Part shown: in pieces, positions 1,551-20,960 of the stretch
Numbering within the stretch: the stretch's first letter is position 1
Layout: each line of letters opens with the position of its first letter
Position numbers and translations under genes: made by a program
Virus record (IMG/VR): IMGVR_UViG_3300035698_033040
Span: 1 to 20,960 of that record
Direction: 5' to 3' (one strand)
DNA length: 20,960 nt
From: a virus
The notes under the pieces: generated by a model
Seen by the model: only the letters and a program-made list of their open reading frames with translations
The model's database searches: none
What the model was told of the DNA's origin: nothing

Positions 1551-1912
1551 AACAGCGGTATCCCAACCAGGCCCAGAAGGAGATCCGCTGGCTCATCGAG
1601 CAATCGGGAGTCACCGGCAAGGTGACCCGCTCACAGGCCGGCGGAGAGGGCACGTTCTTTGGCCCCAACGAGACGGCCGAGGAAGAGGTCGGGACCGTGC
1701 CCATCGAGATGCAGGATCTGCCGCCCAAAGACCTGACTGAGATTGGAGCGGATGCGGTCGCGTGCGTGCTCCCCGATGCCGGCGTGCAAGAACAAGACTT
1801 CCTCGCCATCGGCGAGACGAGATACCGGGTGACCTCGGTGAAGCCCCACAACTTCTTCGGGAAGGTGACGCACCTGGATCTGCACCTGGAGCGGGAGAGA
1901 CGAGATGGGTAG
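1547..1912 (+). CDS. Head-closure (stopper) protein candidate
   Basis: 121 residues. The GTG at 1547 overlaps the preceding stop as GTGA and has ACGGAGGAG just upstream; the frame is open far upstream to 1016, but that part is an antisense-like Arg/Pro/Gly-rich shadow. The C-terminal half is a small beta barrel: DFLAIGETRYRVTSV followed by a strand that ends HLDLHLERE, the usual finish of gp16/SPP1-type head-closure proteins (IxGxxYxV then a strand reading L-x-L-x-R). The position between adaptor and gp10-like genes is the standard place for the stopper. The N-terminal 45 residues are variable. Confidence 0.6.
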   Translation: MKQRYPNQAQKEIRWLIEQSGVTGKVTRSQAGGEGTFFGPNETAEEEVGTVPIEMQDLPPKDLTEIGADAVACVLPDAGVQEQDFLAIGETRYRVTSVKPHNFFGKVTHLDLHLERERRDG

Positions 1913-2300
1913 GCACGGAAAACTCGCCATGATCGACATCGATTTTCGCAAGATCGAGCGCTTGCAGACCGCGATGAAGCAGATGCCGGGACTCATCACC
2001 GAAGAACTCGGCAACGCGGTGCGCGACCTGGTGCTGCTGGTTGAGGCCGAGGCCAAGAAGCTATGTCCGGTGGACACCGGGAAGCTGAGGGCCTCCATCA
2101 CCCCGGTCATCGAATCCTGGGCTGCGGGCTACATCGGCACCAACACGGAATATGCGCCGTACGTGGAGTTCGGGACCAGGAAGATGGCGGCGCAGCCATT
2201 CCTGGAGCCCGCGTTTATTGAGGGCAAGAAGCAGGCCGGGAAAGTGTTCGGCCAGGCAATTTCCCGGGCCATTGCCCGATTCGAGAGGAGTGTGAAGTGA
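1905..2300 (+). CDS. HK97 gp10-like tail completion/neck protein
   Basis: 131 residues, ATG at 1905 inside the end of the closure gene. It carries the family signature clearly: an N-terminal amphipathic helix region, LCPVDTGKLRASI at about residues 53-65, then a strand pair, YAPYVEFGTRKMAAQPFLEPA, and a C-terminal helix. HK97 gp10-family proteins join or stabilise the head-tail interface or the top of the tail. The neighbouring closure and terminator genes are consistent with this. A second ATG eight codons in (1929) lacks a better ribosome site, so the overlapping start was kept. The stop overlaps the next GTG (GTGA). Confidence 0.88.
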   Translation: MGRHGKLAMIDIDFRKIERLQTAMKQMPGLITEELGNAVRDLVLLVEAEAKKLCPVDTGKLRASITPVIESWAAGYIGTNTEYAPYVEFGTRKMAAQPFLEPAFIEGKKQAGKVFGQAISRAIARFERSVK

Positions 2301-2863: not shown

Positions 2864-3193
2864 ATGGCTGAGAAGAACAAGAAGAAGGACGAGAAGAAGG
2901 CCCCAGTAGCGGAGGCGAAGCCTGAGATCAAGACAGAGGAAAGGGCCGCACCGGTACCGGTCGCTCCCGTGACCCCTGCCCCACCGCCGCGGCGTGGGAC
3001 CCTCGGGCGGGCGAAACCCCGGCCGGTGTTGCTCTCCGCCCTGGCCTCGGCAACGGAGACCTCCCCCATCGTGCTGGCCGCTCTCAAGGCCGCATACGGG
3101 TGGACGGACAGGACTCGGCTGATCAGGCGGGAGTTCCTGCGGAAACGTGACGAGTGGCTGGCTCGGCCGGCAAGTGAGGTGTCACCATGGTGA
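2864..3193 (+). CDS. Small Lys/Pro-rich protein of unknown function before the sheath
   Basis: 109 residues, ATG with TTGGAGGAT upstream. Residues 1-50 are low complexity: a Lys/Glu-rich start (MAEKNKKKDEKK) and then an Ala/Pro/Val stretch. Residues 58-103 form a compact helical segment including VLAALKAAYGWTDRTRLIRR. The pattern is of a disordered arm plus a small helical bundle. The stop overlaps the sheath start by 7 bases, so the two are probably translationally coupled. No family recognised; it could be a minor tail or assembly factor. Confidence 0.7.
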   Translation: MAEKNKKKDEKKAPVAEAKPEIKTEERAAPVPVAPVTPAPPPRRGTLGRAKPRPVLLSALASATETSPIVLAALKAAYGWTDRTRLIRREFLRKRDEWLARPASEVSPW

Positions 3194-5472
3194 TCAAACG
3201 AATCATCCCCGACGCCTACACGGAATACGAGGACGGACACCTGGGCGTGGTGCCTGCGTCCCTCGCCAACGTCGAAGCCAAGGTCGGCGGGGCCCAGGGC
3301 GGAATACCCGGCAAGGTCTACACGCTAGCCGGACCGGATGCCAAGAAGATGGCAAAAACCATCTTCAAAAGCGGCCCCTTGCTCCAGGCCCTCGAGGAAG
3401 CCTTCGACGCGGGCTCGACCCGCATCCACGCGGTGCTCATCGGCAGCCCCAAGCAGGCGACTGTCAAGCTCAAGGACGTGACGGGGACGGAGATCCTCAA
3501 GCTCAAGGGCGACTACGGCACCTCGGGCAACAAACACCACGTCAACGTGATGCACGCGTTCAACGACATCGAGTCGGGCTTCGCTGCGGTGCACGAAGGG
3601 CCTCCCCACAAGGTGGCCTTTTACGATGACGGATTCGAGGTGGTCCGGGAAGTCGAGTTGGATGCGGCCATCACCTCGGCCGTCGGTGTGGGCGTGCAGC
3701 AGTTTCCTCTGGGGACCGAAGGAAAGAGCGGTTTCTGGATACTCGGAAGCGGTGTCGGCGGGCCAACGCTGTGGCACTACGACGAAAACGAAGAACTGGT
3801 GGTGGCCGACACCATCGACCTCACGCCCAGCATCCCACCGGGTGACACCATTACGGGCATCGTCCAGGCCCCGTTCAAGCCGGGCGACGGCATCTACATC
3901 ACCACCGACAAGCACCTACTCTACTTCCTCCTGCCCGAACCGGGCGTGGCCGTGCTGGTGGAGGGGATAGAGTACTCCGGTTTCGAGGGCAATCCACAGG
4001 ACGTGTCCTCTGCCGTGCTGTCGTTCGATATCAGTGCGGTCTTCCAGGGAGAGGAGCCGCCGCCAATACTGCTCCTGCTGGAGCGCACTCAGAACAAGAT
4101 CTACGGGGTTTCGCTGCCCCAGGGCGAGCCGGCTGCGCTGGTGGGCTCGGTGGACATCAGCTCGTGGGTGAACGACGACACGGCTGAGGGCATCGGCATC
4201 GACCTGGAGACCAGGGAAGTGCTGATTGCCATCTACTCGCCGATCGACCCGGTAGACCGGGTGACCCGTCTCAAGCTCAACTGGGACGCGGACCCGAATC
4301 CCACCGCCGCCCTGGTGGATTCCTGGACCACTGACAAGAGCCTGAAGGGGCTCGGGGAACACATCGCCACCCTGGAGTGCACCACCACGGTCAAGATCCA
4401 GGACCGCAACATGACGCCCTACCTCGAGCGCACCTACTCGGCCACCGGTACCTTCGAGACAGTGACAGAGTTGGTCATCGCGGCCATCGCTGCTGGCGGC
4501 GTGTACGGGAGCGAACTGCTGGAAGATGACCACCAGCTCCTCGCCCCGTCCAGCGAGGAGGAAGGCGGGCTGCCCGACCCGACCTGGTTCGACGCGTTCA
4601 CCGGGGGCGAAGACGGCGCGGCACTGACCAACGGCGACTACCTGGCCGGCCTCGAGGCTACCGTCTCGAAGACCGACACCAACTGGCTTCACGCCGTCGG
4701 CGCGGTCAGCAATGCGCTGTGGACCGCGATCCTGCTCCACTGCGCCGAGATGCTGGAGGACCACCACGCCGAGCGCTTCGCCATCCTGGAGACGCTGGCC
4801 TTCAGCTCGGACAACGAGGAGGGCACCGCCGCGTACCTGGCCGACCTCCAGACCTATGTCGAGAACATCGTGACCATGGCCGACAAGGTCGGTGACCGCA
4901 ACTCAGTCATCTTCGCGGGCGGCGCGCAGTTCATGGCCTCGGACGGGACCACCTACAACCGGTCCATCACCGCGGCCTGCGGAGGGACCATGGCCGGTCT
5001 CGAGGTCCAGAAGTCGCTCATCAACAAGCCGGTCCGCAACGTGCTGAAGCTCGCACCTGAATTCACGGTGGGGCACATCCAGACCCTCATCCAGGCCAGG
5101 GTCAACTGCATCCGGTTCAAGCCAGGCCGGGGCTTCATCATCGCGCACTCCATGACCGCCGCGGCCAAGGGCTCGGACTACTCCCGGGCCAACGACCTGC
5201 GCGCGGTCTACTACGGAGCGAAGGCTGCCAGAGAGGCGGCGCAGCCCTACGTGGGCGAAGAGAACGACTCGGCCGGCGAGGGCCTGCGACGGCTGGAGTC
5301 GGCCATGTCCCGGCCCCTGGAAGTTATGCGGGACGGAGGGCAGGTGGACGATTTCGAACTGACCGCGGTATCCACGGCCAACGACCGGCTGCTCGGCGAC
5401 GTGTACGTGTCGCTCGGCATCCAGCCCAGGCGGGCCATGGAGATGATCTACACCACGGTGTACCTGAAATAG
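3187..5472 (+). CDS. Contractile tail sheath protein with a large beta-rich insertion
   Basis: 761 residues; typical sheaths have roughly 350-660. The ATG is coupled to the preceding stop. Residues 1-165 resemble a sheath N-terminal region with a Rossmann-like segment (DAGSTRIHAVLIGSP). Residues 390-640 form the central sheath domain, including a helix rich in His/Glu (HCAEMLEDHHAERFAI). Residues 640-761 form the sheath C-terminal domain, with VNCIRFKPGRGFIIAHSMTA, a segment SDYSRANDLRAVYYGAK and a final strand. Between about 170 and 385 (3694-4341) lies an extra beta-rich block of about four WxxG/hydrophobic-strand repeats, including SGFWILGSG, GDGIYITTDKHLLYFLLP, NKIYGVSLPQG and TREVLIAIYSP. 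It looks like propeller blades added to the outer surface. The tube gene follows 11 bases later, the classic sheath-tube pair. Confidence 0.88.
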   Translation: MVIKRIIPDAYTEYEDGHLGVVPASLANVEAKVGGAQGGIPGKVYTLAGPDAKKMAKTIFKSGPLLQALEEAFDAGSTRIHAVLIGSPKQATVKLKDVTGTEILKLKGDYGTSGNKHHVNVMHAFNDIESGFAAVHEGPPHKVAFYDDGFEVVREVELDAAITSAVGVGVQQFPLGTEGKSGFWILGSGVGGPTLWHYDENEELVVADTIDLTPSIPPGDTITGIVQAPFKPGDGIYITTDKHLLYFLLPEPGVAVLVEGIEYSGFEGNPQDVSSAVLSFDISAVFQGEEPPPILLLLERTQNKIYGVSLPQGEPAALVGSVDISSWVNDDTAEGIGIDLETREVLIAIYSPIDPVDRVTRLKLNWDADPNPTAALVDSWTTDKSLKGLGEHIATLECTTTVKIQDRNMTPYLERTYSATGTFETVTELVIAAIAAGGVYGSELLEDDHQLLAPSSEEEGGLPDPTWFDAFTGGEDGAALTNGDYLAGLEATVSKTDTNWLHAVGAVSNALWTAILLHCAEMLEDHHAERFAILETLAFSSDNEEGTAAYLADLQTYVENIVTMADKVGDRNSVIFAGGAQFMASDGTTYNRSITAACGGTMAGLEVQKSLINKPVRNVLKLAPEFTVGHIQTLIQARVNCIRFKPGRGFIIAHSMTAAAKGSDYSRANDLRAVYYGAKAAREAAQPYVGEENDSAGEGLRRLESAMSRPLEVMRDGGQVDDFELTAVSTANDRLLGDVYVSLGIQPRRAMEMIYTTVYLK

Positions 5473-5483
5473 CGAGGTGAGTC

Positions 5484-5960
5484 ATGGCAGAAGAAGGATA
5501 CATCCAGGGAACCTCGGGCGAGGAGATCTCGCTGTTGGTGGACGGCATCAAGATCATGGCCCTCCAGAACCTTTCGTGGAAGGCGAGCCAGGCGAAGTCG
5601 GTCATCCGCGGCGCGGGCTACTCGAAGCCGCACGCGATGGGCCGGGGCCCGAAAGAGTATGAAGTGGACTTTGAGGTGAAGGAGCTGAACAAGGCCGTCA
5701 TTGAGGAGGCCATCAACTCGCCCCGGTCCAGCGAGGTGCAGCTCAAGACCTTCAAGGTCGGGGAGCAGGAGTTCTCCGACCTCTTGGACCTACGCAACGC
5801 GACGGTGCTCATCATGTACCCCGCGAAGAACAACGCGCAGCGCATCATCCGCTTCCTCGGCTTCGAATTCACGGACGTCGAGGGCGGCTTCTCGGTGGAC
5901 GATGAGTCGGTCGGCCGCAAGATGTCCGGCATCGCCATGGATGCCGAAGGACTCGTATAG
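5484..5960 (+). CDS. Tail tube protein
   Basis: 158 residues, ATG with GCGAGGTGAG upstream. Structure as expected for the inner tube of a contractile tail: an N-terminal strand region (GEEISLLVDGIKIMALQNLSW), a Gly-rich loop ending GRGPKEYEVDFEVKEL, a helix (NKAVIEEAINS), then strands including ATVLIMYPA and RIIRFLGFEFTDVEGGFSVD. The final stretch, where a strand is followed by a Met-rich acidic tail, matches tube proteins of the XkdM/P2 FII type. Placement directly after the sheath and before chaperones and tape measure fixes the identity. High copy number expected, in line with the good ribosome site. Confidence 0.87.
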   Translation: MAEEGYIQGTSGEEISLLVDGIKIMALQNLSWKASQAKSVIRGAGYSKPHAMGRGPKEYEVDFEVKELNKAVIEEAINSPRSSEVQLKTFKVGEQEFSDLLDLRNATVLIMYPAKNNAQRIIRFLGFEFTDVEGGFSVDDESVGRKMSGIAMDAEGLV

Positions 5961-6203: not shown

Positions 6204-6551
6204 ATGCAGAACGAACACACCAAGACGGTTGATGAACAGGCTCAAGAGATTGTCGAGAAGCTGCGGGAGGACAAACCGAAGCTCCGGATCTTCCAGATCC
6301 TCGTGCCTGACCGGGAGGACGAGGTGTTCCTCGCCAGGAAGGCTTCGTGGGCGGAGTACAAACGGCTCATCGGCTCCGTGAAGAACGAGGCGGACGCTAA
6401 CGAGATCCTGGTGCAGAAGTTCCTGGTGCATCCCAAGCCGGACTACGAGGAGATCCAGACCGAGTGGGATCCCGGTCTGGTCGTCACCCTGGCCCAGCAG
6501 ATCCAGAAGGGGCTCGGGTTCTCGCAGGGGGCATCTGTAAAAAACTGGTAG
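6204..6551 (+). CDS. Tail-assembly chaperone, short form (gpG-like)
   Basis: 115 residues, ATG with ACAGGAGG upstream. An acidic N-terminal helix (HTKTVDEQAQEIVEKLRE), a core KLRIFQILVPDREDEVFLAR that resembles the start of other G-type chaperones, and a helix-rich C-terminus. Such proteins coat the tape measure protein and recruit tube subunits; they are absent from the finished virion. The end of the frame contains an A AAA AAC slippery heptamer, so a minority of ribosomes should continue in the -1 frame to make the long GT form. The position immediately before the tape measure is diagnostic for this pair. Confidence 0.85.
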   Translation: MQNEHTKTVDEQAQEIVEKLREDKPKLRIFQILVPDREDEVFLARKASWAEYKRLIGSVKNEADANEILVQKFLVHPKPDYEEIQTEWDPGLVVTLAQQIQKGLGFSQGASVKNW

Positions 6552-6578
6552 AGGCCGAGCGGTCAGCGTGCCGCTCGG
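6539..6578 (+). promoter_or_regulatory. -1 programmed ribosomal frameshift signal (A AAA AAC plus hairpin)
   Basis: The heptamer A-AAA-AAC occupies 6539-6545, with AAA and AAC in the zero frame of the upstream gene, exactly the X-XXY-YYZ layout. After a 9-nt spacer a perfect 8-bp stem forms between 6555-6562 (CCGAGCGG) and 6571-6578 (CCGCTCGG) around an 8-nt loop. The zero-frame stop TAG lies within the spacer at 6549-6551, and the -1 frame is open to 6754. Slippery site, spacing and stem are all seen directly. Frameshifting in G/GT tail chaperones is established for lambda and many other tailed phages; use here is inferred. Confidence 0.92.
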
Positions 6579-6754
6579 ATGGACACCGACAGATGCGAGC
6601 CCTCGTCTGCAGCACCTTTGGGGCATACGACTTCGAGAGGGTCGATGCCCTGTGCGCGGACGAATTCGCGGAGGTTGCCGGTGCTGCCCTGTGGCTGAAA
6701 GACCAGGAGGCCAAAGCGGTGAAGCAGGCAGGAAGGAAAAGGAAGAGGCGGTGA
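6545..6754 (+). CDS. T domain of the tail-assembly chaperone, expressed as a -1 frameshift fusion (gpGT-like)
   Basis: Reading 6204-6545 and then re-reading from 6545 in the -1 frame gives a 183-residue fusion: 114 residues shared with the short form and 69 from this frame. The extension begins LVEAERSACR, contains GAYDFERVDALCADEFAEVA, and ends in a basic KQAGRKRKRR tail. The same frame is open back to 6464, but an independent start there has no ribosome site and the upstream part has shadow composition. In lambda the T domain binds the tube protein while G contacts the tape measure. The stop lies 3 bases before the tape measure GTG. Confidence 0.85.
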   Translation: MVEAERSACRSDGHRQMRALVCSTFGAYDFERVDALCADEFAEVAGAALWLKDQEAKAVKQAGRKRKRR

Positions 6755-6757
6755 CAA

Positions 6758-9310
6758 GTGGCTGGAGGGATGTCACATACTATCGGCGTGCTGGTCAAGG
6801 GGCACAACGCCCTCTCCGGCGCTCTGGTGAAGGCCGAGCACTCTCTCACCAGCTTCCGCAAAACCGCTGAGGCCACGGCCCTCTCCGTCAACTCGAAGCT
6901 CTCCGCACCAGATATCGACACCAAGGCCATCGACCAGGCCTCGTCCCGCCTCACCGGCATGGGCACCACCGCGATGATCGCGGGCGGCGTGGTAGCAGCA
7001 GGCCTCGGCGTGGCCGTCCACTCCGCGACCAAGTTCAACACATCCATGGCCGAGGTCTCCACCCTGGTCGACACCTCCACCACCGACATGGATGCACTGG
7101 CCGGCAATGTCCGTTCGCTGTCGAAAGAGTTCGGGCAGATGCCCGTGGATACAGCCAAGGCGTTGTACACCACCATCTCGGCAGGATTCGGCGACGCGCA
7201 GGACGCCACCGTCATGCTGGAAGGGGCTATGAAGCTGGCCCGCGGCGGGATCACCGACACCGAGACCGCCATCGACGGTCTTACCTCCATCATGAACTCC
7301 TACGGCATGAACGCGGGTTCCGTGACCACGGTCTCCGACCAGATGTTCGTAGCGATGAAGGCGGGCAAAACGACCATCGGGGAGTTGTCCTCCAGCATGG
7401 GGAAGGTGACGCCCCTGGCTGCTTCTGCGGGTGTTTCTCTGGATCAGCTCCTGGCCGCAACGTCGGCATTGACGCTCGGGGGCCTCAAGACCAAGGAAGC
7501 GACCACGTCGTTGCGGCAAATCCTGGCCGCGGTCGTGAAGCCGACTGCCGAGGCGTCAAAAACCGCAAAGGAACTCGGCATCGACTTCTCCGGTGCAGCC
7601 GTCAAGAGTATGGGGCTGGCCAACTGGTTGGCTCACGTGAAAGAGAAGACCGGCGGCAGCCAGGAGACCATGGCCACGCTCTTTGGGTCTGTTGAGGCCC
7701 TGAGTGGGGTCCTCGCCCTGACCGGGAACCAAGCCGGTTCGTTCGCGAACATCCTGGGCCAGATGCAGACGTCCGCCGGGGCTACCGAGGAGGCGTTCGG
7801 AAAGATGGATGCCACGGCCGGCGCGGCCTTTGGCCGAGCCAAAGCCAACGCTGCAGTGTTGCTGGAGACCGTTGGAAACGCGTTGCTTCCCGTCATCTCC
7901 GGACTGGCGGACGCGTTCGCCTGGGTGGCTGACAAAATCAGTACGTTTGCCGAAGCCCACCCGTTCCTGACCAAGCTGGTGGTTGTGATGACTGCAGCGT
8001 CTGCGGCGGTGCTGCTCATCGGTGGGGCCTCGATGATCATGGGCGGCAAGGTCATGGCCGCGATGGCAATGGTCAACCTCTCCACCGGTGGCGTCCTCCT
8101 CATTGTCGGGGCCCTGGTCGCCGGCATCACCGGGCTCGTGATGTACTTCACCTCCGGTACCGACGAAATGGCGGATTCCACTTCGACCTTTGGCCGAGTA
8201 CTCGGGGGCCTGAAGGCCGCGTTCTACGCGGTCGCCACCCCCATCGCCTACGGCGTGGGTTTTCTCGTGGGGATGTTCTCGGACGGCTGGGAGGGGATCC
8301 GCCGCGTCAACCGGGAGCTGTGGCTTGACCTCAAGCTGATTGCGGTCGGCACCTGGAACGCGGTCCAGAACGCGCTGGTCGCAGGCATCGAGGCAGTGGT
8401 CGGCTTCTTCAAGTGGGCCTGGGACGGTATCTGCATGGCCACGAGTGCGGCCTGGGCGGTCATCACGCACATATTCAGTGCCTCGTGGACCGGGATCACC
8501 ATGGCCGTCTCCGCAGGCTGGGAAGCGATAAAGGCCACCTTCAACTCGGCACTGGCTCTGGTGACCGCGGCATGGAACACCGCATGGGAAGCGATCAAGA
8601 CGACCTTCACCAACATCTGGGAAGGCATGAAGACCACCCTGACCGGGTGGATGGGCTGGCTGACCGACCTCGGCGATGTCTTTCTCGAAGCCGGCAAGGG
8701 GCTGATCGATGCCCTGTGGGAAGGGATCAAGGCGGCATGGAGCGGCCTTGTCGACAACGTCACCGGCCTCATGGGGGATCTTCGGGATCTCCTGCCCTTC
8801 TCCGATGCCAAGGCCGGCCCCCTGTCGCAGCTCACCGCCTCCGGCTCCGCTCTGGTGACCACATTCTCCGAGGGGATCGGGGCCGTCGCTGATGTACCCA
8901 TCAAGGCGCTGTCCGGGCTTCTCGAGGGCGTGCGCGACCTGCTGCCCTTCTCAGACGCAAAGCGAGGGCCTCTCTCCGAGCTGACCACGTCCGGCGCCTC
9001 GGTGATGCCGACGTTCGCCCTTGGGATCGAGAAGACGGCAGACCTGCCGGCCCGGGCCGTTTCCAACGCGCTGTCCAACATCTCCCTGGAAGCTCCTCGG
9101 ATTCCCCCTGTGCAGATGGAGGCAACCGGACCGGGCGCCGCGCTGGCCCCGGCGACCGAAACCGGCTCCGCCGCGAAAGCAGGCGTCCTCTTCGAGCGGG
9201 GAGCCTTCCAGATCACGGTCAACGGTACGGATGGACTGGATGACCTCGAGGGACAACTCACGGAGATTTTCTCGCGGGCAGCCCTGCGGCTGGGGGTGAG
9301 CCATGGCTGA
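6758..9310 (+). CDS. Tail tape measure protein (TP901 type)
   Basis: 850 residues. The GTG at 6758 is chosen with GAGG about 9 bases upstream; an in-frame ATG at 6770 has GGAGGG directly abutting it, too close to serve. Residues about 90-330 are a typical TP901 tape-measure core (SLSKEFGQMPVDTAKALYTT, GLTSIMNSYGMNAGSV, TLGGLKTKEATTSLRQILAA). Hydrophobic segments at about 407-425 and 443-463 can serve membrane insertion during DNA entry. Residues about 550-635 carry spaced Trp repeats, and 676-769 hold two 50-residue DLLPFSDAK repeats. At roughly 1.5 angstrom per residue, the usual tape-measure relation, the tail would be near 125-130 nm. It overlaps the next gene by 8 bases. Confidence 0.93.
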   Translation: MAGGMSHTIGVLVKGHNALSGALVKAEHSLTSFRKTAEATALSVNSKLSAPDIDTKAIDQASSRLTGMGTTAMIAGGVVAAGLGVAVHSATKFNTSMAEVSTLVDTSTTDMDALAGNVRSLSKEFGQMPVDTAKALYTTISAGFGDAQDATVMLEGAMKLARGGITDTETAIDGLTSIMNSYGMNAGSVTTVSDQMFVAMKAGKTTIGELSSSMGKVTPLAASAGVSLDQLLAATSALTLGGLKTKEATTSLRQILAAVVKPTAEASKTAKELGIDFSGAAVKSMGLANWLAHVKEKTGGSQETMATLFGSVEALSGVLALTGNQAGSFANILGQMQTSAGATEEAFGKMDATAGAAFGRAKANAAVLLETVGNALLPVISGLADAFAWVADKISTFAEAHPFLTKLVVVMTAASAAVLLIGGASMIMGGKVMAAMAMVNLSTGGVLLIVGALVAGITGLVMYFTSGTDEMADSTSTFGRVLGGLKAAFYAVATPIAYGVGFLVGMFSDGWEGIRRVNRELWLDLKLIAVGTWNAVQNALVAGIEAVVGFFKWAWDGICMATSAAWAVITHIFSASWTGITMAVSAGWEAIKATFNSALALVTAAWNTAWEAIKTTFTNIWEGMKTTLTGWMGWLTDLGDVFLEAGKGLIDALWEGIKAAWSGLVDNVTGLMGDLRDLLPFSDAKAGPLSQLTASGSALVTTFSEGIGAVADVPIKALSGLLEGVRDLLPFSDAKRGPLSELTTSGASVMPTFALGIEKTADLPARAVSNALSNISLEAPRIPPVQMEATGPGAALAPATETGSAAKAGVLFERGAFQITVNGTDGLDDLEGQLTEIFSRAALRLGVSHG
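8783..9064 (+). repeat. Two-copy 50-residue repeat within the tape measure gene
   Basis: The encoded blocks starting at 8783 and 8933, 150 bp apart, share RDLLPFSDAK, GPLS, LT and SG, then TF and GI at the same spacing. The motif LPFSDAK-GPLS is familiar from tape measures of Mu/P2-like phages. The codons differ between copies, so this is an old, selected duplication rather than a recent slip. Confidence 0.85.
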
Positions 9311-9998: not shown

Positions 9999-10771
9999 GT
10001 TGGCTGGCCCCCGAAATCGAAGTGACCATCGGCGAGGAGACCCGGTTGGCATCGGTCCAGCGGATGGAAGTGGCCGCGGCCCGCAGCCAGCCCGTGGCCT
10101 CCGTGTACCTCGAGTTGTCCAACGTGCGGTTCGAGTGGGAGGGAGGAGCAAAGGACAGCGACCCGCTGGTGCTGCGCTGGGGCTACCGCGGTCAGGACCT
10201 CCATCCCCTGTTCGATGGCACTGTGCTCCGGGCACATCTGCGGGAGACCTTCAAGGTGTGGGGGCTGTGCCGCGCTCGGGCCCTGGCCGACACCCGGCTC
10301 ACACGCACCTACCAGGACGAGGCAGCGGACGCGGTGGTGAACCACCTGGTGGCCGGCTTGGGCTTCTCGTCCCTGGATGTTGCGTCCTGCGACTTGGTCA
10401 TCGACAAACTGCCCCTCCGCGACAGCACCGTGGCGCAGGCCATCCAGTTCCTCAATCGCCGCCTCGAATTGGACCGGGCGTTCTACGCGGACCCCGAGGG
10501 CGGATTCCACTGGGGCGAACGGGACACGTCCCAGGATCCTGTCTTCACCTTCACCCATGGCGAGGACATCCTCGACCTCCGGTCCCTGCCTGGGCATCGG
10601 CATCTTCTCACCGTCATGGGCGTCCCAGTGTGGCACTCCCAGGTCGTCGCGCTGGTGGATGCGGCAGGCGACGAAACCCGGCACTTCGTTGAGCAGGTGG
10701 GGCACACGGCAGGTGCCGGGGGATCTGGACTACGCAGCCATCTCTGGCTCGAGGCGGTGGCCGATGCGTAG
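9995..10771 (+). CDS. Baseplate hub protein (gpD / Mu gp44-like)
   Basis: 258 residues, starting at the ATGA junction with the previous gene; the frame is open upstream but only as shadow. The first domain (1-85) is beta-rich (APEIEVTIGEETRLASVQRM, then VYLELSNVRFEW), a tube-like fold typical of hub proteins. The middle part has VNHLVAGLGFSSLDV and STVAQAIQFLNRRLELDRAF, matching the domain of late-control-D hubs that wraps under the tail tube, then DPEGGFHWGERD. It sits directly before the spike, as in Mu (44-45) and P2 (D-V). The C-terminus runs past the start of the spike gene by 8 bases. Confidence 0.78.
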   Translation: MSWLAPEIEVTIGEETRLASVQRMEVAAARSQPVASVYLELSNVRFEWEGGAKDSDPLVLRWGYRGQDLHPLFDGTVLRAHLRETFKVWGLCRARALADTRLTRTYQDEAADAVVNHLVAGLGFSSLDVASCDLVIDKLPLRDSTVAQAIQFLNRRLELDRAFYADPEGGFHWGERDTSQDPVFTFTHGEDILDLRSLPGHRHLLTVMGVPVWHSQVVALVDAAGDETRHFVEQVGHTAGAGGSGLRSHLWLEAVADA

Positions 10772-11909
10772 CCGGGGCGACCTCGCAACCGAACTGAAAC
10801 GCCTGGTGGAAGGCCTGCACCCCGACCTGCGGCCGTTCTTCCGGCCCTCGCTGCTCGGGAAAGTGGTCGCGGTGGACGACGACAATTACCGGGTGGACGT
10901 CGTGGTGGGTGGAGACGAAGAGTCCGGGGAGGCGGGGCTGGCCCTGCCCGAGGTCCCCGTGGCATCCCTCTTCGCCCAGGACGGCTATGGCATCTGGGCC
11001 CTGCCCGAGGTGGACGCAGAGGTGACCGTCTCCTTCCACGATGGCGATGTGACCAAGCCCTACGTCGAGGCCCCCATCTTCTACGGCAACAAAGCCCCTC
11101 CCGGCTTCACCACCGGCACCATCGCCATCCGAGGAAAACAGGGCCAGAAGATCGAGATGAAGCCCGGCACCAGCGAAATCGTGGTGTCGGCTGGCTCGCT
11201 GAAACTCATCACCACGGACAAGCGTCAGGAGCACACCGCGGGTGATACCTCCCATATCATTAAAGGATCACGCGAGGACGAAGTTGCCGGTGCGGAGAAG
11301 CTGCAGGCAGATACCTGGACCGTCATCGTCAACCGGGCCGCTCGCATCGAGGCCGGCTCCCTCTTAGAGACGACCAAGGGCGACCTGGTGCAGAAGGTGG
11401 GCGGCTCCCTCCGGCAGAACGTCGCGGGCAGCATTTCTCAGCAGGTGGCGGGTGGGGCCTCGCACTCCATCACATTCTCGAAACGGGAAGTGATCGGCGG
11501 GGCATACGAAATCCTGGTCGCTGCCACCCCTGGCATCGCACCTATGCCTCCGCAGCCAGCCTATTCGGTCCTGGTGAACCTGGGCAATCTGGCCCTGGAT
11601 TCCATGGGCGGACAGATTGATATCGGGGCCAACATCCTGACCCCGCCGCTGTTCATCAACATCGGCTCCACTGCCTCCGGCCCCGTGCAACTCGGCGGAC
11701 TGGGGGCAACGGGGCAGCCCGCTGCCTGCGGGCTCCCACTACAGATCATCCTGAACACCATCCTGACCGTACTCAAGACCGTGCCCCTGGGCATCGGCAA
11801 CCTCGGAGCGCCTATCGCTCCGAATCCGGCTGTCGCAGGTGCGCTGGCCGCAGCAGACGCAGCGATGGCCCAGCTCCTGAGCGGGAAGGTGTTCATTGCA
11901 CAGGTATGA
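10764..11909 (+). CDS. Baseplate central spike protein (gpV / Mu gp45-like)
   Basis: 381 residues from the ATG at 10764, coupled to the hub gene; the open frame extends upstream to 10377 only as a low-complexity shadow. Residues 28-110 form an OB-fold with the family pattern LLGKVVAVDDDNYRVDVVV, IWALPEVDAEVTVSF and PYVEAPIFYGN. Residues 120-250 are short beta repeats (QKIEMKPGTSEIVVSAGS, then an array about 8 residues in period including LVQKVGGSLRQNVAGSISQQ), consistent with a trimeric beta-prism. The last 120 residues are Gly/Ala/Leu-rich, an addition absent from minimal spikes, and no terminal His-x-His iron site is evident. It punctures the outer membrane. Confidence 0.88.
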   Translation: MRSRGDLATELKRLVEGLHPDLRPFFRPSLLGKVVAVDDDNYRVDVVVGGDEESGEAGLALPEVPVASLFAQDGYGIWALPEVDAEVTVSFHDGDVTKPYVEAPIFYGNKAPPGFTTGTIAIRGKQGQKIEMKPGTSEIVVSAGSLKLITTDKRQEHTAGDTSHIIKGSREDEVAGAEKLQADTWTVIVNRAARIEAGSLLETTKGDLVQKVGGSLRQNVAGSISQQVAGGASHSITFSKREVIGGAYEILVAATPGIAPMPPQPAYSVLVNLGNLALDSMGGQIDIGANILTPPLFINIGSTASGPVQLGGLGATGQPAACGLPLQIILNTILTVLKTVPLGIGNLGAPIAPNPAVAGALAAADAAMAQLLSGKVFIAQV

Positions 11910-13762: not shown

Positions 13763-14899
13763 ATGTCGTTGAAAATCAAGACGTACCCGGAACTCGTCAC
13801 CGACATGCTCACTGCCATCGGCGAGAAGACCGGGCTCACCAATTTCAACGTCGGCTCCGTCGTCCAGACGACGACTGAGGTCTTCGCCGAGGTGGTGGCA
13901 GAGTTGTACGCGTTCGGGGCAGGGATGCTGAAGCAGGGTTTCCTGGACACCGCCACCGCTTTTTGGCTGGACCGGAAGGCCAAGGAGTATGGCCTGACCC
14001 GGAAGCCCGCGGTCAAGGCTGAGGGAATCGTCGTATACTCCCGCAAGACGGCGAAAGACACCAACGTCCCGATCCCCGAGGGCTCCATCGTCACCACGCC
14101 CAAGGACCAGAGCGGGACCGAATATCGCTACTTCACCACCGAAGAAGTCGTGCTCCTGGCTGGCGAGGTGTCGGTGGAGGTGTCCGTCATCGCGGAGAAC
14201 GCCGGCTCCGCATACAACGTCGGCCCGGGCTCCATCTCGAAGATGAAGACCTTCATCACCGGCATCGACACGGTCACCAACCCCGAGGACTGGCTCACCG
14301 TCGTGGGCGTGAATGAGGAGACAGATGCGGCCCTCCGGCAGCGCTGTTTCCTGGCCTGGGAGGAACTGTCCCAAGGCGGCACCGCCGCGGCGTACATCTC
14401 TTGGGCGCTGTCGGTAGCGGGCGTGAAGAGCGCGTTCGTGGACGACACCCTGCCCCGTGGCGAGGGAACCGTGGATGTCTACATCATGGGCGAGGCGGGT
14501 CCTCCTGACCCTGCGCTCATCGAAGCGGTCCAGGAGGTGGTGGACAACAACCGGCCCATTACCGCGGACGCGCTGGTGTTCTCTCCCGAGATCGTACCCA
14601 TTCCTATCACCCTGACCGTCACTCCACGGGCCGGGTACGACACCGCTGCTATGGACACGGAGATCCGCCGGCGGCTGTCCGTCTTCTTCGGCGACATCGA
14701 GGATGCCACTCTGCCCATCACGCCGTTGGGCGTCGGGAAGGACGTGGTCATCGCGCAGGTCGTCGGCGTGGTGATGGCCGTGCCCGGGGTTTACTCCGTC
14801 GAGGTCGAGGAACCGGCAGCAGACGTCGTCATCGACCCGAACCAGTTCCCGGAGCAGGGGCTGGTCACTATCAACATGGAGGCCCCGAGCAATGAGTGA
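13763..14899 (+). CDS. Baseplate J-like protein (Mu gp47-like wedge component)
   Basis: 378 residues, ATG with GTAGGAGGATG upstream. N-terminal helices (YPELVTDMLTAIGEKTGLTN, then FLDTATAFWLDRKAKEYGL) and the Baseplate_J core follow: KAEGIVVYSRKTAK, PIPEGSIVTTP, YRYFTTEEVVL, VSVIAENAGSAYNVGPGSI, then NPEDWLTVVGVNEETDAALR and a GTVDVYIMGE strand. These are the recognisable J-family landmarks in the right order, and the length is normal. J forms the arms of the wedge, bridging gp25 and protein I. The last 8 bases overlap gene I. Confidence 0.93.
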   Translation: MSLKIKTYPELVTDMLTAIGEKTGLTNFNVGSVVQTTTEVFAEVVAELYAFGAGMLKQGFLDTATAFWLDRKAKEYGLTRKPAVKAEGIVVYSRKTAKDTNVPIPEGSIVTTPKDQSGTEYRYFTTEEVVLLAGEVSVEVSVIAENAGSAYNVGPGSISKMKTFITGIDTVTNPEDWLTVVGVNEETDAALRQRCFLAWEELSQGGTAAAYISWALSVAGVKSAFVDDTLPRGEGTVDVYIMGEAGPPDPALIEAVQEVVDNNRPITADALVFSPEIVPIPITLTVTPRAGYDTAAMDTEIRRRLSVFFGDIEDATLPITPLGVGKDVVIAQVVGVVMAVPGVYSVEVEEPAADVVIDPNQFPEQGLVTINMEAPSNE

Positions 14900-15509: not shown

Positions 15510-17096
15510 ATGGTACAGAAACGAATCCACGATTACAGGGGACCGAGGTCCTCGGAGAACCTGAACGGCCACCTGGTGAGGGTGGTCCCTCCCGGTGTCT
15601 ACGAGGGTTTTCACGTAGCGGCTGACGGCACCGTCTCCCCCGGGATGCTCATTACTCCCGAGGGGATCCGCATCGAGGAGACGGAGCCCATCTCCGTACC
15701 CCAGCCCGTGGCCGACCCGGTCAATCCACGCATCGACCTGGTCGTCTGCATCCACGAGTACGAGAAGACGGTGCCCCCACCGCCCGCACTCTTCACCACG
15801 GTCCCGGGAACCCCCGCAGCCGCCCCTGAACCGCCGAACCTGCCCGACCACGCGGTGCTCCTTGCCTCCTGTCGGATGGAGGCCGGAGCAGAAGAGTGGA
15901 CCGACATCCAGCAACTCGGCTACCCGGTCCGGGTCTACAACGCGGTCCCACAACCTGACCACACCTGGAAGAGCATCCTCGGGGCCCGGGGCGCTACGCT
16001 GGAACTCTTCGACCCGAACGCCGGAGTCGTCGCCGTATTTATCGCAGCCCCCGGCACCTACGAGGATGGTGACACCATTACCTGGGGCGCTCCCGTCCTC
16101 GAATATAACGCGGACGGCATCCTGCAGGTGCAGGGAGTGCAGGCGAATCTGGACCAGGAGATCGCAGACCGGATCGCTGCAGTCCAGGCCGTCCAGGACG
16201 CCCTGGGCGATCACATCATCGGGCCCGGCCCCGCGCACCCCGCCACCAAGCTCGTCATCTTCGACACCGGGAATCGGTATTCCGCCGAGACCGTCGAGGA
16301 CGCCCTTCAGGAGATCGCCGGTGCCAGCCGCACCACCGAGACGGTCAAAGGAAACGCGGACGATATCCAGGCCCACATCGACGACCCAGCCTCAGCCCAC
16401 ACCGCCAGCGCCATCCGCGTCCTGGACCCCGGCGGGCGCTACTCTGCAGGCGACGCAGAATCCGCCCTCCAGGAAATCGCCGGCGACGGCCGGACCACCG
16501 AGACGGTGAAAGCCAACGCAGACGACATCGCCGTGCTCGAGGCCGGCAAGCTCGACAAGGCAGGTGGCACCGTCGCTGGCCAGCTCAACCTCCAGGGCCC
16601 GATCATCTTCAACGCAGCCGAGGTCGAGAACATCAAGTTCGACGACTACGTGGAGTTCACCAGATGGATTCAGCCCTGCCAGGGCAACTCCGCCAACTGG
16701 CAGAACGCCGGCAACTCCTGGATGTCCCCAGGCGGTGGAGCGGCGCAGCTCTACCTCCCGATCTCCGGAATCGTCGGTGCCGAGCTCGTCTCAGTCGATC
16801 TCGGCTTCGCCAACATCGGTGGCAGCGATGCCACGGTCTCCATCAAATTCCAGGGCCAGAACATCGCCGGGGGCATCGTCATGCCAACCGAGTTCGGTTC
16901 AGCAGGCGGCACCGTCCCCCACGGCGGCAACGCCGTCTTCAACCTCCTGTCCGTCGATCCCGCCCCTCCCCATGATCCTGAACCCTTTGCCTTCGGGGAT
17001 CAATGGTGGCTCCAGATCGAGGTCGAGACCTCCGACCAATGGGTCTTATTCTCAGGGGCGAAGTTCGGTTGCAGGAAAATGATGGTGGCGGTATAG
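15510..17096 (+). CDS. Tail fibre protein
   Basis: 528 residues, ATG with TAGGAGAACG upstream. Residues 1-200 form the baseplate-attachment region, starting VQKRIHDYRGPRSSENLNG and containing the acid/Pro-rich stretch VPPPPALFTTVPGTP. Residues 235-342 hold a two-copy 54-residue fibre repeat (NRYSAETVEDALQEIAG, then GRYSAGDAESALQEIAG), the trimeric shaft type familiar from many tail fibres. After a linker (LEAGKLDKAGGTVAGQLNLQ) comes a beta-rich C-terminal domain (about 360-528) with AAQLYLPISGIVGAELVSVD, probably the receptor-binding tip. No fibre-assembly chaperone is visible after it. It is the last gene of the phage block. Confidence 0.85.
   Translation: MVQKRIHDYRGPRSSENLNGHLVRVVPPGVYEGFHVAADGTVSPGMLITPEGIRIEETEPISVPQPVADPVNPRIDLVVCIHEYEKTVPPPPALFTTVPGTPAAAPEPPNLPDHAVLLASCRMEAGAEEWTDIQQLGYPVRVYNAVPQPDHTWKSILGARGATLELFDPNAGVVAVFIAAPGTYEDGDTITWGAPVLEYNADGILQVQGVQANLDQEIADRIAAVQAVQDALGDHIIGPGPAHPATKLVIFDTGNRYSAETVEDALQEIAGASRTTETVKGNADDIQAHIDDPASAHTASAIRVLDPGGRYSAGDAESALQEIAGDGRTTETVKANADDIAVLEAGKLDKAGGTVAGQLNLQGPIIFNAAEVENIKFDDYVEFTRWIQPCQGNSANWQNAGNSWMSPGGGAAQLYLPISGIVGAELVSVDLGFANIGGSDATVSIKFQGQNIAGGIVMPTEFGSAGGTVPHGGNAVFNLLSVDPAPPHDPEPFAFGDQWWLQIEVETSDQWVLFSGAKFGCRKMMVAV
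16212..16535 (+). repeat. Two-copy 162-bp repeat encoding the fibre shaft
   Basis: Copies at 16212-16373 and 16374-16535 encode 54 residues each, sharing RYSA, ALQEIAG and RTTETVK-NADDI. The two copies differ at many third positions, so the duplication is diverged. The motif AH-A-x-I...ALQEIAG is common in trimeric phage fibre shafts; copy number probably varies between relatives. Confidence 0.8.
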
Positions 17097-17230
17097 GGCG
17101 GGGCATCTCTGTCCCTGAGTGTGGGTTTCGGCATAGGCGCACAGGGATCCTTGGCAATGCACTCTTGGGCTGAATGCGGTCGCAATGCTTTCGTGTCGGC
17201 GACCATCGGCCGTGGCTAGGGCACCGACGG

Positions 17231-17276
17231 CGCCTTGGCCCACGCCGGAAGCCGTGGGCCAGGCGGCCGTGCCGCC
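17231..17276 (+). other. Two overlapping GC-rich hairpins after the tail fibre gene
   Basis: Hairpin 1 pairs 17231-17244 (CGCCT, bulged T, GGCCCACG) with 17253-17265 around an 8-nt loop. Hairpin 2 pairs GGCGGC at 17262-17267 with GCCGCC at 17271-17276 around a 3-nt loop. They share bases 17262-17265, so they are mutually exclusive. No U-run follows either, so they are weak candidates for intrinsic terminators; they might still end the late operon with Rho or protect its 3' end. Confidence 0.6.
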
Positions 17277-17449
17277 CCCGTGACGCTCAACCCAAAAGTG
17301 ACGGATTCTTGGTCTGGCTTCGAGCCATTAAGGGCTCTACGCCGTTGGTCGATGGTCGCCGGAACCCAGGCAGTTCATCGCAAGCTCAATCAAGGCCACG
17401 ATCATACCAGAGTTCACGAAGAGCGGACCATGCATTGGCGAGCATCGAC

Positions 17450-17477
17450 CATCGCACATCGCACATCGCACATCGCA
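17450..17477. repeat. Four-copy 7-bp tandem repeat (CATCGCA)
   Basis: CATCGCA occurs four times in a row at 17450-17477, preceded by a one-off variant (CATCGAC, 17443-17449) and followed by AATCG. It is a microsatellite in non-coding DNA; 7 bp is not a multiple of 3, so it argues against a reading frame here. Confidence 0.9.
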
Positions 17478-17573
17478 AATCGTTGCGCAACCAGGCGTCG
17501 TCGAAGCCTCCGGACGTCCATCACCGTCGAGACTGTCGCAATGGATAGAAACCAGATTCTTGGTAGGAAGTGC

Positions 17574-17602
17574 TTGCAACCAACGATCATACATGCCAAT
17601 AT
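17574..17602 (+). promoter_or_regulatory. Possible weak sigma70-type promoter for the NTPase cluster
   Basis: TTGCAA at 17574-17579 resembles a -35 box, and CAATAT at 17597-17602 lies 17 bp downstream as a poor -10 (three of six consensus positions). It is placed suitably 26 bases before the first cluster gene. The match is marginal and could be chance. Confidence 0.2.
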
Positions 17603-17627
17603 CGGTAGAACGCACGGAGGGCTTCTC

Positions 17628-18263
17628 ATGCCTAGGTTTCTGAATGCTGTCTGCAAGGCTCTGTCGGTCGCCGCTGGACCTCTCGGATTCCCCGGCGAGT
17701 TCGCTCTTCGCTACTACGATGACCACATGGCTGAGGAGAGGGATATTAGGCTCAACGCATTGCTCTCGGAAGGGCAGGCCATCCAACGGGAAACCCTTGA
17801 GAGCATCTTGGACCTAAAGGACGACATCGTCAATATTCGTGAGCAGCTGATTGCAGGACTCATGTCTATTTCGGCGGTGCCACGTCTCCGAGCACTGGCC
17901 ACCAGCAATCCACAAGCTCTTCCCGAGGCAGTCGCCCGTGTTCGTCCGCAGATGGCCGACCGTTCCGCGACAAGCGGGTTCATCGACGACAGCCGGTTCG
18001 TTGCCGAATTGTCTGCCCTGTATGATGACAATCTCCCTCTCTTTTTGGCTACAATCAAACTGGGTGGCTTCCGAGTTGCGCAGATTCCTCAAGGCTTGGC
18101 CCCGCGGGCTGTGTTTTCTTCGTTCTTGACTCGGTTCCGCGGGCTATCTGAGGACGTTCGTGCCCGGGTCTTGCACGAACTATCAACAGAGAGTCCGGGT
18201 AGCATCGTCCTGTCAACCCTCTCTGGTGTTTGGGGCGAGGCCGCAGCATTGTCGGAGAACTAG
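17628..18263 (+). CDS. Coiled-coil protein with a candidate effector-associated adaptor domain
   Basis: 211 residues from the ATG at 17628, chosen for CGGAGG at 17615-17620, 7 bases away; the frame is open upstream through the 7-bp repeat, which is not coding. Residues 1-30 are mildly hydrophobic (AVCKALSVAAGPLGFPGEF) but not a clear membrane helix. Residues 35-77 are a strong coiled coil (ERDIRLNALLSEGQ, then ESILDLKDDIVNIREQL). Residues about 122-187 form a helical domain that can be aligned with the N-terminus of the next protein: FLATIKLGGF against FIVTLKKAEF, FSSFL against FASFI, LHEL against FHAL. No enzyme motif is visible. It is probably a partner or effector of the NTPase encoded 16 bases downstream. 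Confidence 0.8.
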   Translation: MPRFLNAVCKALSVAAGPLGFPGEFALRYYDDHMAEERDIRLNALLSEGQAIQRETLESILDLKDDIVNIREQLIAGLMSISAVPRLRALATSNPQALPEAVARVRPQMADRSATSGFIDDSRFVAELSALYDDNLPLFLATIKLGGFRVAQIPQGLAPRAVFSSFLTRFRGLSEDVRARVLHELSTESPGSIVLSTLSGVWGEAAALSEN

Positions 18264-18279
18264 GAGGAGCCGAAAACAC

Positions 18280-20070
18280 ATGGCATCGCAAGAGTCCTTT
18301 CTACAGAGAGTGGGATACCTCGTTCCCGCCATTCTTGCCGATCTCAATGTCCACTACTGCCCCTTCACCGTTGCGAACTTTATTGTGACGCTCAAGAAAG
18401 CAGAGTTCCCAGTCAATGATTTTGCTTCGCTATCTGCTCCACCCTCTGCCATATTCGCGAGTTTTATCGAAACCTGCGAGCGGGTTCCGTCGGACCAGGT
18501 TGCAAAGGCTTTCCATGCACTTCTGGGGGACAACAATGAGGCGGAGTCCTTTCAATGGGCCGCACGCTTCTTGACAGGAGGGAACGAACTACTCGTGCGC
18601 ATAGAGGAGCCAACGGAGTTCTCGTTGTTCCTGACGGGGAAGGTGACTTCTCTCTCTGCCCCCCTGCCCCTCGGTACCATTACGTATGACCCCGAGTTCG
18701 GTGCCGCTTACGTTCGACAGACCTTAGGTACTTTGGGCCTGGATGCGTTCGCTGAGCAAGTACTTCCCAATGCGGATTTTCTCGTATTCCAAGGGCCACA
18801 ACTGGCAGGCAAGTCGCTCCAAGTTGCTCGGCTGGTTGCCCATCTTGCTGCTCAGCCTGATTTTGATGTCATCGCCCACGTCAAGACTGACGTCCGGGAC
18901 ATTGTTGACGACTTGGCACATGGGGAACCACGTCACCCCATAGCCTCCCCAGAGCTGTCAAGGATCATTGCTCAGTTGGCTCAATCGGCAGTTATCAGCG
19001 TGTTGAACCATTCGAGCAGTTCTCAAATCCAACCGGCCCAGCATGCCACCGAACCCCGCGCAACGACATTTCTCCGTAAATACTGCAGGAACCTGAAGTC
19101 CGTGATAACTGACATAGCACAGAGGCGGGAGAGAGAACCGCATAAGAACATCTATGCGATACTCTCCGACTCCATTTTCAACGCTATTGCATACGCAGGG
19201 CTAGGCCGGGCGAAGTGCATCATTGTGATAGAGATCGAGGACGGAGCTTCTGATGACAACCCCCGATTGCTCGAAGGAACTTCTGGCGCAGGAGAGATCG
19301 AAGGTCACGGCCCCTTTGGAATTGTCGCTAAGTGGTTGGCCCGGCAAGGGTCTTTGGAATTGCCCCGGAGTATGCCGGCCCATGCCCACCCAGACGGCTG
19401 CGTTAAGGTAGTCCTCACTTCACGCCATCTGCACACGACCACGTCTCCGTCTATTTTTCGAAGCATTGGAAGGGGAGTTGTTCAGCTTTCCTTCTTTTCG
19501 GAGTCGGAGTGTTGTGCGTTTGTTTGCCACATGTTCGGTGAACGATGGCCCAACAGATTCGGCGACAGAACCGTGGCTTCTGTGGCCCAAATTGGGCACG
19601 CCTATACGCACGGCTATCCCTGGCTTTTCCTAAGGTGGCTTGAGGGCGTCACCTATTTCATCGAGGGCCTCGACGAGTTCGATCTTGCTGACGTCCTTGT
19701 CGCTGTGCGACGGTGGCCGCAGCTTTGGTACTATGAAACGCCACTCGTCGTTGGGGCGGGGGAGAGTGCCCAAACAGAGATGCTGTGGCCAGACGGCCAA
19801 GCCGCGAGCGCTTTTCTGACGACGGTGCACCAGACATTGTCAGACAATCGCCCTCTAGTGGAGTTCTTCGACGCAATTGTGCACGCTGATCTAAACGAGT
19901 CGGACGGCATCGCCGTGGAAATTGAGAATCTCTACGCCACCCCCCTGATACGGGCAGGACTTGTCCGCTATGAGGGAGGAATGCGCTCAACCTTCGTCCC
20001 TTCATGTCCGTTGGTACAAGAGTGGTTTTCGCCATCGGTACTCGGCGACTTTCTGGAGAACTGGCTATGA
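18280..20070 (+). CDS. STAND-like P-loop NTPase with an N-terminal adaptor domain
   Basis: 596 residues; ATG at 18280 with TAGGAGGA at 18261-18268, spacing somewhat long at about 12. Residues 15-85 form the helical domain shared with the upstream protein. The NTPase starts with VFQGPQLAGKS, Walker A G172-x4-G-K178-S179. A hydrophobic strand ending in acids, IIVIEIED at 314-321, is the Walker B candidate. VKVVLTSRH, with R382, matches the sensor strand LTSR common in STAND NTPases. Residues about 505-596 resemble a winged-helix end (LYATPLIRAGLVRYEGG, then CPLVQEWF). No C-terminal TPR, WD or LRR sensor follows. It probably acts as a nucleotide-dependent switch. ATGA overlap with the next gene. 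Less GC-rich than the phage genes. Confidence 0.8.
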   Translation: MASQESFLQRVGYLVPAILADLNVHYCPFTVANFIVTLKKAEFPVNDFASLSAPPSAIFASFIETCERVPSDQVAKAFHALLGDNNEAESFQWAARFLTGGNELLVRIEEPTEFSLFLTGKVTSLSAPLPLGTITYDPEFGAAYVRQTLGTLGLDAFAEQVLPNADFLVFQGPQLAGKSLQVARLVAHLAAQPDFDVIAHVKTDVRDIVDDLAHGEPRHPIASPELSRIIAQLAQSAVISVLNHSSSSQIQPAQHATEPRATTFLRKYCRNLKSVITDIAQRREREPHKNIYAILSDSIFNAIAYAGLGRAKCIIVIEIEDGASDDNPRLLEGTSGAGEIEGHGPFGIVAKWLARQGSLELPRSMPAHAHPDGCVKVVLTSRHLHTTTSPSIFRSIGRGVVQLSFFSESECCAFVCHMFGERWPNRFGDRTVASVAQIGHAYTHGYPWLFLRWLEGVTYFIEGLDEFDLADVLVAVRRWPQLWYYETPLVVGAGESAQTEMLWPDGQAASAFLTTVHQTLSDNRPLVEFFDAIVHADLNESDGIAVEIENLYATPLIRAGLVRYEGGMRSTFVPSCPLVQEWFSPSVLGDFLENWL

Positions 20071-20834
20071 CAAGCCGAGCAAACAGCATGGAACATAACC
20101 TGGCCGTTTCAAAGCGAATTCGCGAAGTCCTGGATAGCTTCGCTCAAAGCGCTCAACCCCTGAACGTCTTTGGCCAGGTAGGCCTGCCTCGCGACTTGAG
20201 GAGCCCTTTGCGGCTCTACCGCTTGCAGCGTCCTGTTGTCGAAGGCAGGCCTCACGCTACTGTCTTCGTTATACCTACAAAGCCGAAAGTCTCAAAGGAC
20301 GATTTCGATGCCGTTGCCACCTTTCTGGATTCCGACGATTCGGCGCAACGTGACACTCGCTTGGCGTTCGTGGATTGCTTTTCCTTGTCTCCATCCGTCA
20401 TTCCCGATGGATGGATGAACTTGCCGCCCAGGAAGCTCTGGCAGTCGCTTATGAGCTTCGAACCAACCATTGGCGACGTCTCGGAGAAAGAGGATTTGGA
20501 TGAAGTCATGGACCACTTCATTCAAAGAAAGCTCGTTGCCCTTCGGCGCATGGACAATGGTGATATGCAACTCGACACCGAGAGTCGGGAGGCCTTGGAC
20601 TTTTTAGGAGAATGGGTCAAAGAATCTCCATTCACGTCTCGAAGTCTTCTGCTTTTCGGCGAACGAGGTTCAGGCAAGACATGGCTTCTGAAGAGGTTCT
20701 GGAGTGAACAGAATCGACGGAACAATGTCGATCCCTGGCTTCATCCACCTGCCATCTATATAAATCTTGAACAATATGGCGTCTATCTCCTTCGTGTTCA
20801 AGGGATTGCAAAAACCCTTGCCTACTTCGCGTAG
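20067..20834 (+). CDS. P-loop NTPase N-terminus, apparently truncated
   Basis: 255 residues from the ATG that overlaps the previous stop, with TGGAGA at 20054-20059; the frame is open upstream to 20004 only inside the previous gene. Residues 60-130 look like an alpha/beta domain (HATVFVIPTKPKVSKDDFD, then TRLAFVDCFSLSPS). A helical linker follows, and then LLLFGERGSGKTW with Walker A G198-x4-G-K204-T205 and the next strand AIYINLEQYG. The frame stops about 50 residues after the P-loop; there is no Walker B, sensor or lid, which an NTPase module needs. So it is broken, frameshifted, or interrupted near 20.78-20.83 kb. The neighbouring frames do not give a clear continuation. Confidence 0.7.
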   Translation: MTSRANSMEHNLAVSKRIREVLDSFAQSAQPLNVFGQVGLPRDLRSPLRLYRLQRPVVEGRPHATVFVIPTKPKVSKDDFDAVATFLDSDDSAQRDTRLAFVDCFSLSPSVIPDGWMNLPPRKLWQSLMSFEPTIGDVSEKEDLDEVMDHFIQRKLVALRRMDNGDMQLDTESREALDFLGEWVKESPFTSRSLLLFGERGSGKTWLLKRFWSEQNRRNNVDPWLHPPAIYINLEQYGVYLLRVQGIAKTLAYFA

Positions 20835-20842
20835 GGCGTGAT

Positions 20843-20959
20843 TCAGCACCCGGTCCAGTGGGCATAGAATCGCGCCGATGCCCTCTTCAGGATCGACAAT
20901 AGGTTTTCAAGAAAATACAGTGGTGTCTCCTTCGCAGCCTTACCAAGCAAAAGGAAGGA
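20843..20959 (-). CDS. Possible C-terminus of a minus-strand gene (weak)
   Basis: On the minus strand one frame is open from the window edge to a stop at 20843-20845, 38 codons. It encodes a protein-like helical tail containing KETPLYFLENLLSILKRASA and ending FYAHWTGC. No plus-strand frame is open across the same stretch. It could be the end of a convergent gene or of an element inserted into the NTPase gene, but 38 codons are within chance. Not recognised. Confidence 0.2.
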   Translation of the reverse strand, partial: SFLLLGKAAKETPLYFLENLLSILKRASARFYAHWTGC

Positions 20960-20960
20960 G

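Follow-up and report, generated by a model that had tools for sequence, protein, structure and literature searches.

The tail sheath protein encoded in the analysed virus DNA very probably carries an inserted five-bladed β-propeller, as judged from a structure model of the insert. The window, i.e. the whole stretch of DNA analysed, comprised the 20,960 bases of a virus record and included a contractile-tail module (Table 1). The sheath was matched to the Pfam families DUF2586 (2e-18), Phage_sheath_1 (7e-10) and, just below the cut-off, Phage_sheath_1C (3e-5), and to the tail sheath family phrog_279 of PHROGs (5e-31). Both phrog_279 and DUF2586 covered the N- and the C-terminal part of the sheath core, and residues 17–99 matched the phage 812 sheath (5li2). 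The gene order was that of a contractile tail, with a neck/completion protein upstream, followed by the sheath, a tube-like protein, the tape measure and the baseplate; from neck to tape measure it was identical in the relatives described below.

Table 1. Features of the sheath gene, its predicted propeller and the surrounding tail module (positions in the window; residues of the sheath unless otherwise stated)
Feature	Residues	Position	Strand	Basis
Tail sheath gene, ATG start	761 aa	3187..5472	+	ORF; Pfam and PHROGs profiles
Sheath core, N-terminal part	1–117	3187..3537	+	residues 4–116 = phrog_279 positions 11–117
Insertion, predicted five-bladed β-propeller	122–398 (~277)	3550..4380	+	model, Foldseek, relatives
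Stem, first strand, continues into blade 1 strand b	119–130	3541..3576	+	DSSP strand 2–19 of model
Blade 1, strands b, c, d	131–158	3577..3660	+	DSSP strands
Blade 2	164–212	3676..3822	+	DSSP strands
Blade 3	222–262	3850..3972	+	model strands; conservation
Blade 4	273–323	4003..4155	+	model strands
Blade 5	332–382	4180..4332	+	model strands
Blade 1 strand a, C-terminal ring-closing strand	387–393	4345..4365	+	DSSP strand 270–287 of model
Stem, second strand, re-enters core (TTTVKIQDRN)	394–403	4366..4395	+	model; relatives
Sheath core, C-terminal part	405–761	4399..5469	+	Pfam, PHROGs, insert-removed profile alignments
Neck protein (neck1)		1905-2300		contractile-tail gene order
Tape measure	850 (own length)	6758-9310		contractile-tail gene order
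gpV-like OB-domain baseplate protein		10377-11909		contractile-tail gene order
Baseplate wedge		13763-14899		contractile-tail gene order

Residues 118–405 were folded with AlphaFold2 apart from the sheath, using a seven-sequence alignment; the whole sheath, folded from its single sequence, reached a pLDDT of 35 and was uninformative. The insert model was all-β with about 20 strands (mean pLDDT 88.8, pTM 0.87; five models at 83.0–88.8). Its strand list (DSSP) reads as five four-stranded blades, blade number and closure being taken from this list and not from coordinates, and the strand letters being assigned provisionally by the NHL register. Strand d of blade 2 was weak, consisting of short bridges and helical turns (model residues 87–98). 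Based on the strand order and the pTM of 0.87, the ring would be closed in a 3+1 manner, with strands b, c and d of blade 1 provided by the N-terminus and strand a by the C-terminus, and the two stem strands (residues 119–130 and 394–403) would pair. An earlier note on this DNA had suggested about four propeller-like repeats of NHL/WD type. The model agrees on the propeller, as opposed to a β-sandwich, and predicts blades of the NHL/paraoxonase type; the repeats themselves were above chance, while their number was set too low. The first blade (FAAVH/KVAFY/EVVREVEL, 131–158) and the closing strand (KGLGEHI, 387–393) had been missed.

Structural similarity to solved propellers was found with Foldseek, which gave 131 matches in the PDB at E ≤ 0.001, the 50 listed being propellers or propeller-bearing complexes. 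The best match was paraoxonase-1 (2.3e-7, TM 0.55), accompanied by NHL domains (8suc, 7nyq) and WD40; TM-scores against solved six- and seven-bladed propellers were moderate, about 0.55 at best. Among the matches listed, paraoxonase-1 (1v04) and the NHL propellers (8suc, 7nyq) were the nearest solved folds (E 2e-7 to 3e-5), with 9–14% identity over the alignment, and paraoxonase has six blades as opposed to five here. In the viral models of BFVD, many propeller-like proteins were matched, mostly unnamed, e.g. the phage or viral proteins A0A0F7L528, A0A516M8D9 and A0A0F7Q1J2. On the level of sequence profiles, NHL was matched by one of the seven members (E = 0.12), WD40 by none, and the paraoxonase/arylesterase profile had no match in the insert; nor was a credible family match obtained for the insert among Pfam, PHROGs, NCBIfam and PDB sequences.

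Internal repeats were assessed by self-aligning the seven-sequence profile off the diagonal, with 200 column shuffles for comparison and two core segments of equal length as controls. The insert scored 56.1, compared to 31.0 ± 5.1 for the shuffles (z = 4.9; 0/200 shuffles reached the score), and the core segments gave z = 0.9 and 0.5. In the best self-alignment, residues 119–364 were paired with 168–404, which corresponds to a shift of about one blade, and the ungapped offset spectrum peaked at 51 and at 100–102 residues. The period of about 51 residues lies within the range of four-stranded antiparallel blades (~40–60 residues). Its persistence through the entire insert in the alignment shifted by one unit, together with the confident propeller model and the propeller matches in Foldseek, largely refutes the reading of the stretch as another β-rich sheath domain, e.g. 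tandem Ig-like β-sandwiches. Ig-like sandwiches are the usual additional domains of sheaths (PMC9230969) and occur in most large ones, but for the insert this reading is considered very improbable.

The limits of the insertion were derived from family profiles. Of the 489 positions of phrog_279, 11–117 were matched by the first 124 residues and 194–483 by the part from residue 395 onward; the N-terminal core part stops with KGDYG-SGN-HHVNV, a strand of the hairpin split by the insert. When the insert was removed, the remaining 485 residues covered phrog_279 positions 11–483 of 489 and scored 123.1 bits compared to 108.9 for the intact protein, and the score of DUF2586 rose to 72.8 bits from 67. 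Since both profiles span both flanks and score higher once the insert is removed, the sheath is, as judged from these alignments, ordinary in size and build apart from about 277 extra residues at one site. That the stretch is instead part of a longer conserved core, as might be thought from its presence in 6/6 close relatives found and from the IMG/VR scans, which gave no close relative lacking it, is refuted by the alignment of phrog_279 and DUF2586 to both flanks without the stretch and can practically be discarded.

The earlier note had thus been right about a long, β-rich, repeat-bearing insertion at this site of the tail sheath, and all peptides that it quoted (FWILGSG, NKIYGVSLPQG, REVLIAIYSP etc.) were found in the translation. 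The limits it gave (residues 170–385, 3694–4341) fit in location, but the insertion is larger at both ends (Table 1). The insert proved to be neither sheath core nor a known sheath domain, the two outcomes named beforehand as speaking against the proposal.

HHalign did not yield a usable alignment of the sheath with the single sheaths of Moorella phage MTATph1, Vibrio phage GR11A or JSE, so that the insert position rests on the family profiles. Read by eye from motifs only, what seems to be this hairpin is present in JSE (GNSLEVEIL ... YAFIVRRDGVVVESYVLS), where the loop has about 40 residues, and in GR11A (NNAISIKI ... FRVLVYHLNVLVETWTVS), where it has about 15. The G+C content of the insert (0.631) was in line with that of the flanks (0.630 and 0.663).

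Relatives were collected from IMG/VR. The same six contigs were retrieved with five baits (sheath, sheath alignment, tube-like protein, most distant relative, and insert alone), and the baseplate wedge protein as bait gave one more contig, too short to include the sheath; as these scans require short exact matches, distant carriers may be missed. No relatives were found in GTDB genomes, and tblastn of the insert against 50,697 phage records gave no credible match. The six sheaths were 51–78% identical over the whole length, and the insert was kept in 7/7 phages at 270–281 residues. Mean pairwise identity among the seven was 38% for the insert vs 72% for the core, i.e. in these sequences the insert is diverging about twofold faster than the core, as expected of an exposed domain. 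Over the 21 pairs, identities of insert and core were correlated (r = 0.86; exact Mantel 10/5040). A freely recombining cassette was considered and rejected, as this correlation fits common descent within the group. By the same comparison, the insert is inherited with the sheath gene and has then diverged faster.

Sheaths with additional domains are well known. In type 2/3 contractile sheaths (Evseev et al. 2022, PMC9230969; T4-type gp18 domain I, phage 812 sheath domain II), the N- and C-terminal core is likewise interrupted by an extra domain located away from the tube. These extra domains are mostly Ig-like β-sandwiches, or helical as in AR9 and PBS1 (PMC9230969), whereas a five-bladed propeller is predicted here; in that survey of 112 modelled sheaths, extra domains were Ig-like or helical, and the word "propeller" is absent from the text. 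In line with the earlier note, which knew of no such case, no sheath with a propeller or bladed domain was found described in the open-access literature, subscription papers and preprints lying outside the scope of the search. The propeller-bearing sheath is accordingly termed "not found described" rather than "first": the extra outer domain as such is known, and its predicted fold would be new.

The closest phage counterpart is Gp45 of Staphylococcus phage phi11 (PMC4901313), in which a five-bladed propeller serves as a receptor-binding platform. It is alike in being a phage tail protein with five four-stranded blades, a stem and a 3+1 closure, the latter proposed for the insert from its strand order. 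It differs in forming a receptor-binding trimer of the baseplate instead of a part of the sheath, and in its closure, where the N-terminal strand and three C-terminal strands form the last blade, whereas here the C-terminal strand would complete the first. No sequence similarity of the insert to Gp45 was found in the PDB sequence search. The seven-bladed propeller of PhiKZ gp131C and PRD1 P2, as cited in PMC4901313, are further virion-surface propellers with a proposed role in adsorption; as described there, they are located at the baseplate periphery or in a spike, differ in blade number or are distorted, and do not belong to a sheath. A different inserted domain was observed in the 769-aa sheath of Moorella phage MTATph1 (L026 1692-4001), in which residues 149–197 matched DUF2460 (6e-8); a smaller second sheath-annotated gene lies just upstream of it.

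Extra sheath domains are common and nearly all described ones Ig-like, and the predicted propeller would indicate that the sheath periphery takes up a large unrelated fold with the core left intact, a point of relevance to the acquisition of domains by sheaths. It would also be a clean test case for the old idea that sheath decorations aid adsorption, being a compact domain whose ends adjoin on a stem and whose length is kept in seven phages, and which could be expressed alone or removed whole. With its small stem, it could moreover serve as a natural model for the display of folded domains on polysheath tubes.

Regarding its placement, the propeller would be inserted in a β-hairpin loop in the peripheral part of the sheath subunit and be carried on a two-stranded stem. 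Additional sheath domains in known structures sit away from the tube (PMC9230969), and by analogy with these other sheaths the propeller is expected to be exposed outward. With a chain starting at strand b and ending at strand a of the same blade, the stem would exit from the bottom face (a–b and c–d loops); given this strand order, the top face (d–a and b–c loops) would point away from the tail. Propellers usually bind ligands at the top face. For an estimate of copy number, a tail length of about 1.5 Å per tape-measure residue was used, by which the 850-residue tape measure would correspond to about 128 nm. At a ring rise of 39 Å, as measured in phage phiCD508 (PMC11948020), this would give about 33 rings and, at six subunits per ring, on the order of 200 propellers per virion.

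The reading favoured for the function of the propeller is binding to the host surface, for which the chances are put at about even. It is drawn by analogy, both to the aid in adsorption suggested for the Ig-like domains of sheaths (PMC9230969) and to the propeller of phi11 Gp45. An accessory layer of low affinity and many copies would, ahead of baseplate engagement, tether the phage to glycans or other polymers on the host surface. The full proposal, in which about 200 outward propellers form a multivalent, fast-evolving host-binding layer, the sheath joins the fibres and baseplate in adsorption and the layer is rearranged on contraction, is tentative and on the doubtful side. A conserved ligand face was sought by loop conservation in the seven sequences and none was found: top loops scored 0.378 vs 0.334 for bottom loops, a difference that is not significant (p = 0.24). 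The best-conserved top loops, PPGDT (within 213–221) and DKH (241–243), flank blade 3, and neither a binding nor a catalytic motif was recognised in the insert.

Conservation within the insert was concentrated in the hydrophobic strands (a and b) rather than on one face, which leaves no evident ligand site and fits a purely structural propeller, cementing adjacent sheath subunits or rings or spacing them in contraction, with no host binding. In the sheath of phage 812, such cementing has been suggested as the task of the extra domain, as quoted in PMC9230969. Conservation would, however, be expected of an interface present on every subunit, whereas divergence is about twice as fast in the insert as in the core, and a structural role is considered rather unlikely, albeit worth keeping in view.

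The propeller could also be an enzyme, e.g. a domain degrading surface polysaccharides. Glycosidases include five-bladed propellers, and the best fold match of the insert, paraoxonase, is a hydrolase. Propellers are moreover a main fold of phage depolymerases, the DepoScope training set having 96 n-bladed propeller depolymerases (PMC11326577). Fold likeness alone is no sign of activity, however: no sequence match was obtained in Pfam, NCBIfam, PHROG or PDB, a set of acidic residues invariant on one face was not established, and the tail shaft would be an odd site for an enzyme. Enzymatic function is accordingly regarded as improbable.

Further observations were made on the remaining genes of the window. 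A 158-aa protein (5484-5960) adjoins the sheath on its 3' side, in the position of the tail tube, and is 75–94% identical in the relatives. Its sole match was phrog_9206, "major head protein" (8e-7), a label that is perhaps erroneous: in the Moorella phage, too, the sheath is followed by two genes annotated "major head protein". Upstream of the tape measure, the frames 6204-6551 and 6464-6754 overlap, and a slippery heptamer, AAAAAAC, lies in frame at 6539, 12 bases ahead of the end of the first frame's stop codon; this distance was equal in L003, L004, L005, L006 and L007. A -1 shift at the heptamer would join the two frames, comparable to tail assembly chaperones. Amid the head-tail joining genes, a 191-aa ORF (975-1550) was found to be conserved in the relatives; it has hydrophobic segments as well as a lipobox-like LVGCG and might encode a lysis or membrane protein, for which this location would be unusual. 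A putative fibre protein (15510-17096, no Pfam match) contains two near-copies of a D-G-RYSA-ALQEIAG segment. Past the tail genes, at 17000-20960, the G+C content drops from about 0.65 to 0.55. No clear defence family was found among the three ORFs of unknown function in this region, which might represent flanking host DNA or cargo; the last of them has a P-loop AAA match (AAA_22, 1.3e-5).
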